Shown in pieces: positions 10,178-18,940 of a stretch of DNA of 35,014 nucleotides (position 1 is the first letter of the stretch; every line of letters begins with the position of its first letter). The stretch is from Candidatus Eisenbacteria bacterium. GTDB lineage: Bacteria > Eisenbacteria > RBG-16-71-46 > SZUA-252. The position numbers and the translations under genes were made by a program. The stretch lies in the NCBI GenBank assembly GCA_005893305.1, contig VBOZ01000009.1:20199-55212 (forward strand). Direction: 5' to 3'. Below the pieces are notes generated by a model. It saw only the letters and a list, made by a program, of their open reading frames with translations. It searched no databases and was not told the DNA's origin.

Positions 10178-10819
10178 ATGCTCTCCGCTCCGTCGCTCTT
10201 GACCTTCGACATCTTCGGGACCGTCGTCGATTGGCGGCGCGGTCTCACCGAGTCCGTACGCTCCCACGGCGTCGAAATGGGCGACCGGGAGTTTCAAGCA
10301 GTCATCGATTGGCAGGCGCGCGCCGAGTCGCAGGCGTACCAATCCTACGCCGATATCCTCGGGGAGAGCCTCGTGAGGGTCTTGCGCTTGGATCGCGAGG
10401 CCTCGCGCGCGATCGCCGCGGGGGCCGGACGGTGGCCGCTCTTCCCCGACTCCGCGGACGGCCTTCGCACGCTCATGCGCTCCGCTCCCTGCGTCGCGAT
10501 GACGAACAGCGACCAGATGCACCGCCGCCAGGTGGAGGACCAGCTCGGCTTTCGGATGAGCGGCTGGATCTGCGCGGAGGATGTGGGCTGCTACAAGCCG
10601 GCGGCCGAGTTCTGGATCGCCGTGGGCGCGCGGCGGAGCGTTCCGTTCGGCCCGGCCTGGTGGCACGTCTCGGCCTACGCGGACTATGACCTCGCGACGG
10701 CCGGCCGCCTGGGTCTCACGACCGTCTTCGTCAAGCGGCCGCACTCGATCTGGGGCCCTTCCTCGCTCGAGACCGCGGATCTTCGCGCCCTCGCTACTTC
10801 CCTTGGACGAGGCTCCTGA
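10178..10819 (+). CDS. HAD-family hydrolase, haloacid dehalogenase type II-like
   Basis: A 213-residue HAD enzyme. Motif I is TFDIFGTVVD, with nucleophile Asp11 and Asp18 in the D-x-F-G-T-x-x-D form used by L-2-haloacid dehalogenases and relatives. Motif II is AMTNSD (Thr109/Asn110/Ser111), motif III Lys140 in CYKPAAEFW, and motif IV the acidic VSAYADYDLATAGRLG near 164-180. The dehalogenase family has a similar VSxxxxDLxxAxxxG. The usual length is 220-230 aa, so it is complete. The substrate cannot be told and may be a phosphate ester rather than a haloacid. GGGGAAG lies just ahead of the ATG. Its 3' end overlaps the convergent proline dehydrogenase gene by 26 nt. Confidence 0.85.
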   Translation: MLSAPSLLTFDIFGTVVDWRRGLTESVRSHGVEMGDREFQAVIDWQARAESQAYQSYADILGESLVRVLRLDREASRAIAAGAGRWPLFPDSADGLRTLMRSAPCVAMTNSDQMHRRQVEDQLGFRMSGWICAEDVGCYKPAAEFWIAVGARRSVPFGPAWWHVSAYADYDLATAGRLGLTTVFVKRPHSIWGPSSLETADLRALATSLGRGS

Positions 10820-14427: not shown

Positions 14428-15294
14428 GTGTTACCCTTCACCATGCCCCACGCGGATCCGTCCGGTTTTCGCCTTCCCGATCTTCGCTTCGCCGCGGTGG
14501 ATCTCCTCGTCCCCCACGAGAAGGAGGACCAGCGGAGAACCGAATCGCTCGCCGCTCGCCTACGCGAGTCGGGAATCTTACGCAACCCCCCGATCGTGAC
14601 CCCCGCCCGCTCCGATCAGCGCTTCGTCGTTCTGGACGGAGCCAATCGCGTCTCGACGATCCGCGCGGCCGGGTTTCCGCACGTCGTCGTCCAGGTCGTC
14701 CCGTATGAAGGCCCCGGGGTCCGACTCTCCACCTGGCACCACGCCCTGGGAAAAGTCGCGGCGGAGGAGCTGGAGCGCGCCCTCCCGTCGATCCCCGGGC
14801 TGGAATCGCATCGGGAAGATCTGAGCCACGCCCGCGCGCTCCTGGCGCGCCGGGAGGCGATCGCGTTCGTGGAGCGCGCGGACGGCGCCGTGATCTGCCT
14901 GCACGGAGGCCCCGACCTCCACGCTCGAAACGCGCTTCTCAACGCCGTCGTCGATCTCTACCGCGGGAAGCACCCCTACCATCGCGTCACCCGCGACTCG
15001 ATCGAGGAGGCCCGGGGCCGCCATCCGGACGCGGCCGCGCTCGTCGTTTTTCCGCAGTTTCACCCCGAGGAGATCCTCGAGGTCGCCCTCGGCGGCGCCC
15101 GCCTCCCGGCCGGAATCACGCGGCACGTGATCGCGTGGCGCGCGCTCCGGATCAACATGCCGCTCGACGTCATGGCCGACCCAAGTAGGAAGCTCCCGGA
15201 GAAGCAGCGCTGGCTCTCGGAGTGGCTCGCGGAGCGGGTCGAGCAGAGCGCCGTGCGGTTCTACGAGGAGAGCACGGTTCTGTTCGACGAGTGA
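14428..15294 (+). CDS. SbnI/SerK-like ParB-fold free L-serine kinase
   Basis: A 288-residue protein of the ParB/sulfiredoxin-fold group typified by SbnI and archaeal SerK, which phosphorylate free L-serine to O-phospho-L-serine. Visible family features: VPHEKEDQRR with Glu31 at the position of the catalytic Glu, LRNPPIVTP, VLDGANR (70-74; the ParB-type DGxxR motif), LSTWHHAL, and a C-terminal PAGITRHVIAWRALRINMPLDVM that parallels SbnI along its length (from memory). Residues 200-288 have no counterpart in ParB partition proteins, so chromosome partitioning is unlikely. SbnI also doubles as a haem-responsive regulator in Staphylococcus; this is not shown here. The GTG at 14428 is preferred for its leaderless spacing; ATG 14443 is the alternative. 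The next gene starts 7 nt later. Confidence 0.8.
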   Translation: MLPFTMPHADPSGFRLPDLRFAAVDLLVPHEKEDQRRTESLAARLRESGILRNPPIVTPARSDQRFVVLDGANRVSTIRAAGFPHVVVQVVPYEGPGVRLSTWHHALGKVAAEELERALPSIPGLESHREDLSHARALLARREAIAFVERADGAVICLHGGPDLHARNALLNAVVDLYRGKHPYHRVTRDSIEEARGRHPDAAALVVFPQFHPEEILEVALGGARLPAGITRHVIAWRALRINMPLDVMADPSRKLPEKQRWLSEWLAERVEQSAVRFYEESTVLFDE

Positions 15295-15301
15295 CCGAAC
15301 G

Positions 15302-16309
15302 ATGAAGGTTCGAATCATCGCCCAGGCTGACGTCCCCCGGCTCCTCCCCATGGCGGAGTGCGTGAGCCTGATGGCGGACGCGCTCCGGGGCCTGGCCCGG
15401 GGGGAATCGGTCCAGCCGCTCCGCACCGTCACGCGCGTTCCGGAAGGAGGGGGCCTCCTCGCGTCCATGCCCGCCTATCTGGGCAGCCCTCGCGCCCTCG
15501 GCGTGAAGGTCATCACCGTGACCCCGGCGAACCAGGGCACGCCGTTCGACTCGCACCAGGGCGCGGTGCTGCTTTTCGAGCCGGTGCACGGAAGCCTCGT
15601 CGCGGTCATCGACGCGACGTCGATCACCTCGATCCGGACCGCCGCCGTAAGCGCAGTCGCGACCGACGCCCTGGCGCGAAACGGCGTCACCAGCGCGGCG
15701 ATTCTGGGATCCGGCGTTCAGGCGGCGGCGCACCTCGAAGCCCTGCGGGTGGTCCGGCCGATCGAGCGGGTGCGCGTCTGGAGCCGGAGCTTCGATCACG
15801 CGAAGGCGTTCGCCGCGCGCGAATCGGCACGTCACGGGATCCGGATCGACGCGGCGCGCTCCGCGCGCGAAGCCGTCGACGGAGCGGAGGTCGTCTGCGT
15901 TGCGACGGCGGCGCGGGAGCCGGTGCTCCTCGGAGAGTGGATCGCGCCCGGCACGCACGTGAACGCGGTCGGTGCCTGTGTCCCGACGTGTCGCGAGCTC
16001 GACACGGAGGCGGTGCGGAAAGCGCGCCTCTTCGTCGACCGGCGCGAGTCCGCGCTTCACGAGGCCGGCGACATCCTGATCCCAATCCGAGAAGGCGCCA
16101 TCCGGGAGGATCACATCATCGGGGAGATCGGCGACGTCCTCCTCGGCCGAGTTCAAGGGCGCCGCGGCGACGAGGAGATCACCCTGTTCAAATCCTTGGG
16201 CCTCGCGATCGAGGATCTGGCGGCGGCACACAGGATCCACGCCAACGCGACGGCGGGCGGCGTCGGGTCGATCGTCGATCTTGGAGGGCACCGCGATGCG
16301 CCCGCTTGA
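15302..16309 (+). CDS. Ornithine cyclodeaminase/mu-crystallin family NAD(P)-dependent enzyme (SbnB/EutC-like)
   Basis: A 335-residue protein matching the family throughout: GVKVITVTPAN with Lys69, IDATSITSIRTAAVSAVAT (Arg112), the Rossmann motif ILGSGVQA (134-141) and NAVGACVPTCRELD (221-234). True ornithine cyclodeaminases have an Asp in the last motif (Asp228 of the Pseudomonas enzyme, from memory), where this protein has Cys226. This fits the reductase/dehydrogenase branch better than a cyclodeaminase. Family members act as SbnB (N-(1-amino-1-carboxyl-2-ethyl)-glutamate hydrolysis/oxidation), EutC, or imino-acid reductases. It is the middle gene of the serine-kinase operon: 7 nt after the kinase and 14 nt overlapping the PLP gene. 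Confidence 0.88.
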   Translation: MKVRIIAQADVPRLLPMAECVSLMADALRGLARGESVQPLRTVTRVPEGGGLLASMPAYLGSPRALGVKVITVTPANQGTPFDSHQGAVLLFEPVHGSLVAVIDATSITSIRTAAVSAVATDALARNGVTSAAILGSGVQAAAHLEALRVVRPIERVRVWSRSFDHAKAFAARESARHGIRIDAARSAREAVDGAEVVCVATAAREPVLLGEWIAPGTHVNAVGACVPTCRELDTEAVRKARLFVDRRESALHEAGDILIPIREGAIREDHIIGEIGDVLLGRVQGRRGDEEITLFKSLGLAIEDLAAAHRIHANATAGGVGSIVDLGGHRDAPA

Positions 16310-17258
16310 GGCGCCGCGCCTCGAGGAGATTCGCGCCGCCCGCGAGCGGATCGCGTCCACCGTCTTGCGGACGCCGCTGGTGCGTCTCCAAGCGGACGAC
16401 GCTCCGGCCGAGATCCACCTGAAGCTCGAGAATCTGCAGCCGATCGGCTCGTTCAAGCTGCGCGGCGCTGCGAACGCGATGCGGCTTCACCCTCGCGACG
16501 CGCTCGCACGAGGCGTCTATACCGCGAGCGCGGGAAACATGGCGCAGGGGGTCGCATGGAACGCTCGTCTCCTGGGCGTCCCCTGCGCGGTGGTCGTCCC
16601 CGAGCACGCGCCGCGCACGAAGCTCGACGCGATCGAGAGGCTGGGCGCCCGCATCGTGAAAGTACCTTTCGACGTCTGGTGGAGCGTGTTGGTCGAGCGC
16701 AGCTATCCCGGCATGGAGGGTCTCTTTATCCACCCGGTGAGCGACCTCGCCGTGATCGCCGGGCACGGCACGATCGGCCTCGAGATCCTGGAAGATCTCC
16801 CTGATGTCGACGCGATCCTCGTCCCCTATGGCGGCGGCGGGCTGAGCTCGGGCATCGCAGCCGCGGCCCGGGCGCTCAAGCCCGGCGTGAAGATCTTCGC
16901 CTGCGAGGTGGCCACCGCGGCGCCCTTCGCCGCATCGCTCGCCGCGGGCTCGCCGCGCTCGATCGAGCACAGGCCTAGCTTCGTGGACGGAATCGGCGGG
17001 AAGAGCCTGCTCGCGGAGATGTGGCCGATGGTGAGGGAGCTCCTCGCGGGGTCGATCACCGTGGAAGTCGCGGAGGCGGCGGCGGCGGTCCGCCTCCTCG
17101 TGGAGCGGAATCGGGTCGTCGCGGAAGGGGCGGGAGCGGTGCCGGTCGCCGCCGCGCTCACCGGGCGCGCCGGCCCCGGAACGGTGGCGTGCGTCGTTTC
17201 CGGCGGCAACATCGACGCGGAGAAGTTAGCGAAGATCCTGGCGGGAGGAATCCCGTGA
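16296..17258 (+). CDS. Fold-type II PLP enzyme, threonine/serine dehydratase-like
   Basis: A 320-residue enzyme with PLP Lys54 in the diagnostic QPIGSFKLRGAANAM, SAGNMAQGVAWNARLLGV, ETALT-equivalent HGTIGLEIL, and the Gly-rich phosphate loop PYGGGGLSSGIAAA. The C-terminal ends with VVSGGNID, as in threonine/serine ammonia-lyases and serine racemases. It lacks the C-terminal ACT domain of biosynthetic IlvA. Cysteine synthases and SbnA carry a different Lys motif (P-x-x-S-x-K-D-R type), so this is not a plain SbnA. Relatives include EutB, hydroxyaspartate dehydratase and serine racemase. The start is the ATG at 16296, with GGAGGG at 16283-16288; upstream TTG 16281 is rejected. It overlaps the preceding gene by 14 nt. 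Confidence 0.88.
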   Translation: MRPLEAPRLEEIRAARERIASTVLRTPLVRLQADDAPAEIHLKLENLQPIGSFKLRGAANAMRLHPRDALARGVYTASAGNMAQGVAWNARLLGVPCAVVVPEHAPRTKLDAIERLGARIVKVPFDVWWSVLVERSYPGMEGLFIHPVSDLAVIAGHGTIGLEILEDLPDVDAILVPYGGGGLSSGIAAAARALKPGVKIFACEVATAAPFAASLAAGSPRSIEHRPSFVDGIGGKSLLAEMWPMVRELLAGSITVEVAEAAAAVRLLVERNRVVAEGAGAVPVAAALTGRAGPGTVACVVSGGNIDAEKLAKILAGGIP

Positions 17259-17362: not shown

Positions 17363-18940
17363 GTGCAACTGCGACGACTTCGCGTAGGGATCGTTGACCT
17401 CGTAGCCCGAACGCCGACGCGCTCGTTATACGCATGGGTGATGCACGCAAACCTCGCGAGCATCATGCCCCAGGTGATCGGCGTATGGTGTGAAGAACAA
17501 GGCCACGAAGTCGAGCTCGTCTGCTACACCGGATTCGAAGACCTCACCCGGCTGATCCCCCACGACATCGACATCCTCTTCATCAGCGCCTTCAGCCAGG
17601 CGGCCCAGCTTTCCTACGCGATCAGCAACATGTACCGGAAGAAGGGCGTCATCACAGCGCTCGGCGGACCGCACGCGCGATGCTATCCCCAAGATTCGCA
17701 GAAGTACTTCGACTACGTGCTTGGATTCACCGACAAGGAAACGCTGAAGACGGTTCTGGACGATTGCACTCAGCACCGGCCGGTCGGGCTCTACCTGACC
17801 GCGAAGAAACACCCGCCGACGCTACCCGGCGTTCGCGAGCGATGGAAATTCATCGAGCCGATCATCGCGAAGGCGCCGACGTTCAAGCTCGTCCCGATGA
17901 TCGGGAGCCTCGGTTGTCCGTACACCTGCCCCTTCTGCATCGATTCGACCGTCGATTATCAGCCGCTCGGCTTCGAGCAGATCCGGGAGGACCTCCGCTT
18001 CCTGCGCACGAAGATGAAGCGGCCGCGGGTCGGATGGCATGACCCCAACTTCGGCGTCCGGTTCAACGACTACATGAACACGATCGAGGACGCCGTGCCC
18101 CCCGGCAGCATCGATTTCGTCGCCGAGAGCAGCCTGTCGCTCCTCGCGGAGCCGCACCTCGTCCGCATGAAGAAGAACGGCTTCAAGGGGATCCTCCCCG
18201 GGATCGAATCGTGGTATTCCCTCGGGAACAAGGCTGGAACGGGAAGCGCGATCCAGGGCGCGGAGAAGGTCCGCCAGGTCTCCGAGCACGTGAACCAGGT
18301 GCTCCGCTACATCCCGTACGTGCAGACCAATTTCGTCTTGGGGTTGGACATGGACCAGGGCGATGAGCCGTTCGAGCTGACGAAGCGATTCGTCGACATG
18401 ACGCCGGGCGCGTTTCCCGGCTACTCGCTCCTCACGGCGTTCGGGCAGGCGGCGCCGCTCAACCTGCAATTGCAGAAGGACCAGCGGGTGTCCGCGTTCC
18501 CCTTCCACTTCCTGAACAACAATCACGCGATGAACGTGAAGCCGAAGAATTACGGGTGGCCGGAATTCTACGACCGTGTGATCGACCTCACCGAATACAC
18601 GTTCTCATGGCGCGCCATCGTGAACCGGTATCGCGCGAGCAAGGAAGCCATCCCGCGCTGGATGAACGTGGTCCGCGCGATCTCGACGGAGGGCTTCGGC
18701 CGGATCCGCTACCACAACGCCGTGCGGCAGATGCTCGACCAAGACCCGACGTTCCTCCCTTACTTCGACGGCGAGAGCGAATCGCTGCCGCAATTCTACG
18801 TCGATCGGGTGAAGCGCGACCTGGGCGGCCTGTGGGATCATCTTCCCGAGGGGGCCCTGTACCACGACCCCAACGCGTACTTGAAGTCCCACACCCGGGG
18901 GAACGGGGATCCCGCTCTCGCGCTTCCCATCGTCTCCTAG
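17363..18940 (+). CDS. B12-binding-type radical SAM protein
   Basis: A 525-residue protein. Residues 1-150 form a Rossmann-like region as in cobalamin-binding radical SAM proteins (IGVWCEEQGHEVELVCY, HDIDILFISAFSQAAQLSYAI, GVITALGGPHARCYPQD, FDYVLGFTD). The radical SAM domain begins at MIGSLGCPYTCPFC, the CxxxCxxC cluster ligand being Cys185, Cys189 and Cys192. GILPGIESW and NFVLGLD are further radical SAM signatures. The cobalamin His motif DxHxxG is not evident, so B12 may bind base-off without it or not at all. The last 150 residues are a distinct helical tail. The likely chemistry is methylation or rearrangement of an unactivated carbon; the substrate is unknown. The GTG start has GGGAG almost adjacent, an unusually short spacing. 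It follows the serine-kinase operon by 104 nt. Confidence 0.88.
   Translation: MQLRRLRVGIVDLVARTPTRSLYAWVMHANLASIMPQVIGVWCEEQGHEVELVCYTGFEDLTRLIPHDIDILFISAFSQAAQLSYAISNMYRKKGVITALGGPHARCYPQDSQKYFDYVLGFTDKETLKTVLDDCTQHRPVGLYLTAKKHPPTLPGVRERWKFIEPIIAKAPTFKLVPMIGSLGCPYTCPFCIDSTVDYQPLGFEQIREDLRFLRTKMKRPRVGWHDPNFGVRFNDYMNTIEDAVPPGSIDFVAESSLSLLAEPHLVRMKKNGFKGILPGIESWYSLGNKAGTGSAIQGAEKVRQVSEHVNQVLRYIPYVQTNFVLGLDMDQGDEPFELTKRFVDMTPGAFPGYSLLTAFGQAAPLNLQLQKDQRVSAFPFHFLNNNHAMNVKPKNYGWPEFYDRVIDLTEYTFSWRAIVNRYRASKEAIPRWMNVVRAISTEGFGRIRYHNAVRQMLDQDPTFLPYFDGESESLPQFYVDRVKRDLGGLWDHLPEGALYHDPNAYLKSHTRGNGDPALALPIVS

Follow-up and report, generated by a model that had tools for sequence, protein, structure and literature searches.

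A SerK/SbnI-like putative serine kinase gene beside a predicted beta-elimination and imine-reduction module in a Candidatus Eisenbacteria bacterium

Kinases of free serine have been described in few organisms. SerK of Thermococcus kodakarensis depends on ADP and acts specifically on free serine (PMC5120207), and no clear-cut bacterial SerK homologs were reported by Makino 2016. The kinase activity of Staphylococcus SbnI requires Glu20 and Asp58, according to the passage of PMC9641203 that cites Verstraete 2018. SbnI has also been described as a transcriptional regulator, and the ParB-CTPase fold includes many non-kinase members (PMC12704722, PMC9641203). TrpB2 enzymes use O-phosphoserine, according to the citation of Busch 2014 in PMC11917138. 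Here we describe a locus of a Candidatus Eisenbacteria bacterium in which a SerK/SbnI-like gene is followed by genes for an OCD/mu-crystallin-family protein and a fold-type II PLP enzyme (PLPA).

The window, which is the whole 35,014-nt stretch of DNA analyzed, contains these genes as three plus-strand ORFs (Table 1). The ORF coordinates confirmed the tight packing described in the initial annotation, with 7 nt between the first two genes and a 14-nt overlap of the last two. The probable start of each gene is an ATG at the first position listed, and a GTG at 14428 is the longest-ORF start of gene 1. The window contains no N; GC is 0.69-0.71 and GC3 0.85-0.87 across the three genes. A sigma-70 promoter scan found no site. 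A B12-binding/radical SAM gene (17363-18940) lies about 100 nt downstream of PLPA on the same strand. Its product weakly resembles TIGR04013 (27.7 vs 251 bits), and the gene does not adjoin SerK-PLPA in G002. G-numbers denote the genomes compared and L-numbers their loci; the phylum set comprised 47 genomes, and G000 is the genome of the window (2.75 Mb, 96% complete).

Table 1. Coordinates of the three genes and associated features in the window
Feature	Position	Strand	Basis or characteristic
Gene 1, SerK/SbnI-like putative free-serine kinase, 283 aa	14443..15294	+	E26 and D65 catalytic-site residues; family and profile matches
Gene 2, OCD/mu-crystallin family, reductase type, 335 aa	15302..16309	+	Cys226 replaces cyclodeaminase Asp
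Gene 3 (PLPA), fold-type II PLP enzyme, 320 aa	16296..17258	+	K54 in GSFK, SAGNMAQGVAW loop, SFVDGIGG motif
GGAGGG-containing, ribosome-binding-site-like stretch in the last part of the OCD gene, just before ATG 16296	16281..16295	+	sequence
HAD type II-like hydrolase	10178..10819	+	motif DIFGT; orthologues adjoin SerK in relatives

Gene 1 was compared with NCBIfam, Pfam and PDB sequences. It scored 55.8 bits (E 4e-15) against SbnI (NF033589) and 43.5 bits against archaeal SerK (NF053625). As these scores are below the equivalog cut-offs of 350 and 380 bits, gene 1 is a relative of both families and a member of neither. No Pfam family matched it. Its PDB matches were SbnI and SerK chains. A profile of 16 gene 1 homologs (hmmsearch) found SbnI (5uje, E 2.8e-28; also 6nr6) and archaeal SerK (5x0b, E 5e-15), and among the PDB chains it matched neither ParB nor anything else beyond these two proteins. 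Profile comparison gave homology with SbnI across almost the entire protein (E 3e-27 to 3e-28). In the alignment, Glu20 and Asp58 of SbnI corresponded to E26 and D65 of gene 1, and Glu30 of T. kodakarensis SerK (TK0378) also corresponded to E26. Both E26 and D65 were invariant in 16/16 homologs, and their invariance upheld the earlier grouping of gene 1 with SbnI and SerK, as opposed to ParB-type proteins lacking the catalytic Glu. Differences from SbnI are the low model score, the lack of a siderophore operon, and partners that are neither SbnA nor SbnB. Gene 1 shares the fold family of archaeal SerK; a difference, besides the score, is that it belongs to a bacterial clade. Homologs were present in 29 of the 47 genomes of the phylum.

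Gene 1 probably encodes a free-serine kinase, judging from these residues and matches. The assignment is further supported by homologs that adjoin TrpB2, a family known to use phosphoserine. Alternatively, gene 1 could encode a nucleotide-binding regulator with the ParB/Srx fold and no kinase activity. Its scores under the equivalog cut-offs, the many non-kinases of this fold and the regulatory role of SbnI (PMC12704722, PMC9641203) agree with such a function. We consider it very unlikely, because both SbnI kinase residues are invariant, no ParB chain was matched, and the TrpB2 neighbors fit a phosphoserine supplier.

In three genomes of unrelated families (G019, G052 and G009), a SerK homolog with 31-35% identity to gene 1 was directly upstream of a TrpB-like gene, with gaps of 66, 28 and 224 nt, respectively (loci L056:7913-10186, L055:6315-8511 and L059:7996-10397). 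All three TrpB-like genes exceeded the curated TrpB2-type cut-off. G052 is outside the phylum set, and the survey of its phylum covered four genomes only. PLPA shares fold type II with the PLP enzymes TrpB2 and SbnA. SerK and TrpB2 are likely a phosphoserine-supply pair. The pair is apparently undescribed in the literature searched, where none of the publications listed contained both TrpB2 and "serine kinase". A deep-branching bacterial SerK clade beside TrpB2 would explain the source of O-phosphoserine in genomes without canonical SerC, and would suggest that SerK is paired with fold-II PLP enzymes more generally. A difference from the present locus is that G000 has no TrpB2 above the cut-off, and PLPA is not TrpB-like. 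In G009, glycine-cleavage genes, identified from reading translations, follow SerK-TrpB2.

PLPA matched PF00291 with 231 bits. It was closest to threonine/serine dehydratases and serine racemase, not to the cysteine synthase group. With TdcB (2gn0), the serine racemase SRR, EutB and BhcB it shares fold type II, the GSFK lysine, the tetraglycine loop and the SGGN motif. Its orthologues (60-73% identity) have LQPIGSFK, SAGNMAQ and SFVDGIG in common. A difference is that nearly all of them carry SAGNM, with Met where ordinary dehydratases have His (SAGNH/SSGNH), and PLPA has SFVDGIGG in place of xADG. A paralogue with about 40% identity, PLPB, has the ordinary SAGNHAQ and TLADG. PLPA was below all curated cut-offs, including those of BhcB (NF045641, 186.5 vs 550 bits), EutB (TIGR02991, 215.2 vs 413.35 bits) and SbnA (TIGR03945, 54.3 vs 349.95 bits), the last being a cysteine-synthase-type framework that PLPA does not have. 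By these sequence features, PLPA represents a separate subfamily within the threonine/serine dehydratase group. It is probably a beta-eliminating lyase.

Gene 2 matched PF02423 of the OCD/mu-crystallin family with 270 bits. The closest solved structures were T. litoralis pyrroline-2-carboxylate reductase (6t3e) and the ketimine reductase CRYM. Like these enzymes and BhcD, with which it is homologous over the whole length, gene 2 lacks the Asp of the cyclodeaminase site and retains counterparts of the Lys and Arg that bind the substrate. Cys226 occupies the position of the catalytic Asp228 of the P. putida cyclodeaminase, which sets gene 2 apart from true OCDs. Close relatives have Cys or Ser at this site, never Asp; a true OCD-like sequence in the alignment (L118) keeps Asp. 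A catalytic role of Cys226 was weakened as a candidate, since some relatives carry Ser there. In the nucleotide-binding domain, the residues that follow the second beta strand (WSRS) suggest NADPH as the cofactor. Gene 2 missed every curated equivalog cut-off, including SbnB (TIGR03944, 149.2 vs 326.9 bits), BhcD (NF045643, 145.3 vs 500 bits) and EutC (TIGR02992, 172.7 vs 471.65 bits). Another difference from the described reductases is that it adjoins genes of fold-II PLP enzymes. Gene 2 is probably an NAD(P)H-dependent imine reductase.

The initial annotation had correctly read the QPIGSFKLRG motif with K54 as dehydratase type and the replacement of the cyclodeaminase Asp by Cys226. It had also seen a resemblance to a non-canonical diaminopropionate-type pathway. 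In the pathway of the SbnA/SbnB kind, phosphoserine and glutamate give ACEGA, followed by oxidative release of L-Dap. At the level of broad families, the three gene products do correspond to SbnI, SbnA and SbnB. However, the scores against the SbnA model (54 vs 350 bits) and the SbnB model (149 vs 327 bits) are low, PLPA is of the threonine dehydratase group, and no siderophore or NRPS gene was recognized among the flanking genes examined. Since gene 2 is not SbnB-like and gene 3 is not SbnA-like, a diaminopropionate pathway is unsupported; we rejected it on family scores and consider it extremely improbable.

The gene order was compared across relatives. SerK-OCD-PLPA was found in G000 and in no other genome searched, so a conserved three-gene operon was rejected. 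In the two congeners (G001 and G002), PLPA directly followed SerK, and OCD was elsewhere, beside PLPB. SerK and PLPA were thus adjacent in 3/3 genomes of the genus. OCD adjoined PLPA in nine genomes. In seven of these, from two families (G003, G005, G006, G007, G008, G018 and G038), the order was PLPB-OCD-PLPA, with no SerK beside it; in G007, two reading frames make up a broken OCD gene. G028 apparently has this cluster divided between two contig ends. At the conserved loci L122, L123, L125, L126, L127 and L130, two fold-II PLP enzymes flank an OCD-type reductase. Compared with SerK-PLPA-c26 of G002, the window has the OCD and B12-binding/radical SAM genes added.

In the trees, SerK of G000 grouped with those of G001 and G002 (100/99). 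OCD of G000 grouped with the G028/G039/G003 type, outside the clade of G001 and G002 (95/98), and is not an orthologue of the congeners' OCD. PLPA of G000 had no resolved placement. As SerK follows the congeners and OCD does not, the three-gene operon appears most simply to be a recent, lineage-specific assembly. The idea of a shared pathway was weakened by the lack of conservation of the three-gene order, but not removed, as the adjacency of SerK and PLPA held throughout the genus.

Our preferred explanation, which we hold tentatively at somewhat less than an even chance, is that a kinase producing O-phosphoserine became linked with a module for beta-elimination and imine reduction. Gene 1 would phosphorylate free L-serine to O-phospho-L-serine, as suggested by homology, the conserved catalytic residues and the TrpB2 neighbors. 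PLPA would catalyze beta-elimination from an amino acid that carries a substituent at the beta position, yielding 2-aminoacrylate/2-iminopropionate, and its substrate in this genus is plausibly O-phosphoserine. With NAD(P)H, the OCD-family enzyme would reduce the imino acid to an amino acid, for example alanine. An older PLPB-OCD-PLPA module would be the source of both OCD and PLPA; in G000, OCD may have been inserted between the genus-typical SerK-PLPA pair to form a new three-gene operon. The gene structure, neighborhoods, trees, conserved residues and family membership are observed, and we infer every reaction in this scheme. The use of the kinase's product by PLPA and OCD is, taken singly, possible and similarly tentative. 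A further proposal is reductive beta-elimination as a bacterial route, in which phosphorylation of free serine provides phosphate as leaving group and a dehydratase-type PLP enzyme with an OCD-type imine reductase converts O-phosphoserine into another amino acid. In a wider form of it, a bacterial SerK clade would feed O-phosphoserine to differing fold-II PLP enzymes, TrpB2 included, depending on lineage. This proposal is speculative, and we think it rather unlikely to hold as a whole.

Several observations speak against the linkage. PLPA and OCD occurred without SerK in G005 (94% complete) and G006 (93% complete), and about eight genomes with close SerK had no PLPA. Sequence comparison identified no phosphate-binding-specific residue in PLPA. 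Plain synteny may account for SerK and PLPA being neighbors in one genus, as MsrA has likewise stayed close to them. In most relatives, SerK adjoined other genes, such as those of a zinc alcohol dehydrogenase or a HAD hydrolase.

It is also possible, though somewhat doubtful, that the kinase is real and its neighborhood incidental. PLPA, PLPB and OCD would then form an O-phosphoserine-independent dehydratase/imine-reductase module like BhcB/BhcD or EutB/EutC, acting on amino acids with a beta-hydroxy group, such as serine, threonine or 3-hydroxyaspartate. The persistence of PLPB-OCD-PLPA in two families with no adjacent SerK, and its presence in the two SerK-free genomes, agrees with this. PLPB and PLPA also scored highest with threonine/serine dehydratase and EutB models; the PLPA gene was divergently oriented to a malate synthase gene in G042 and followed a dicarboxylate/amino-acid symporter in G044. 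However, SerK adjoins PLPA in every genome of the genus (3/3), SerK co-occurred in 16/18 PLPA genomes (not corrected for kinship), and no known pathway model reached its cut-off. The PLPB-OCD-PLPA module is predicted to be a separate, uncharacterised amino-acid pathway, now open to testing.

The serine and cysteine metabolism of the host was also considered. SerK might serve central metabolism, providing phosphoserine for cysteine or tryptophan or connecting serine with 3-phosphoglycerate, as has been suggested for Thermococcus, with OCD and PLPA as unrelated operon passengers. SerK and canonical SerC never occurred together in the phylum: SerC was in 0/29 SerK genomes vs 8/18 others (P = 1.4e-4, not corrected for kinship). 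The window's family lacks CysE. It has an alternative aminotransferase-SerA-ThrH-like-PurA cluster, with names taken from sequence reading and not from curated matches. The ThrH-like phosphoserine phosphatase was in 7/8 other genomes of the family; G000 has lost it, as the genome search found no match there and nothing occupies the interval between SerA and PurA (L192:4800-5184). On the other side, most close relatives carry both SerK and a ThrH-like phosphatase, and G000 retains the alternative aminotransferase-SerA operon, which could make phosphoserine. G000 also has a CBS-plus-cystathionine-lyase-like pair for cysteine and, as noted, no TrpB2 above the cut-off. We judge a purely central role quite unlikely. 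Replacement of CysE by SerK was rejected, as the association was not significant (P = 0.11) and the CBS-plus-lyase pair exists. A broken phosphoserine aminotransferase in G000 is not claimed, because the split falls at a run of N (L192:6624-6632).

The HAD type II-like hydrolase of the window (Table 1) has orthologues that immediately precede SerK in G003 and G008. It is unlikely to be a phosphoserine phosphatase, because its motif I lacks the second Asp of HAD phosphatases and is dehalogenase-like. In G007, the HAD hydrolase and SerK form one uninterrupted 470-aa ORF (L041:3835-5247), a possible natural fusion. In family f8 (L048, L038, L054 and other loci), SerK is commonly followed by a zinc alcohol dehydrogenase gene, and a gene for a GlcF-like iron-sulfur protein lies farther along. 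In G020, a SerK homolog is located 2 nt from a HAD-IB phosphatase-like gene with the motif FFDVDKTLLPG (L058:6812-8397), and this pair is followed by genes read from sequence as ThiS-, ThiG- and ThiE-like.
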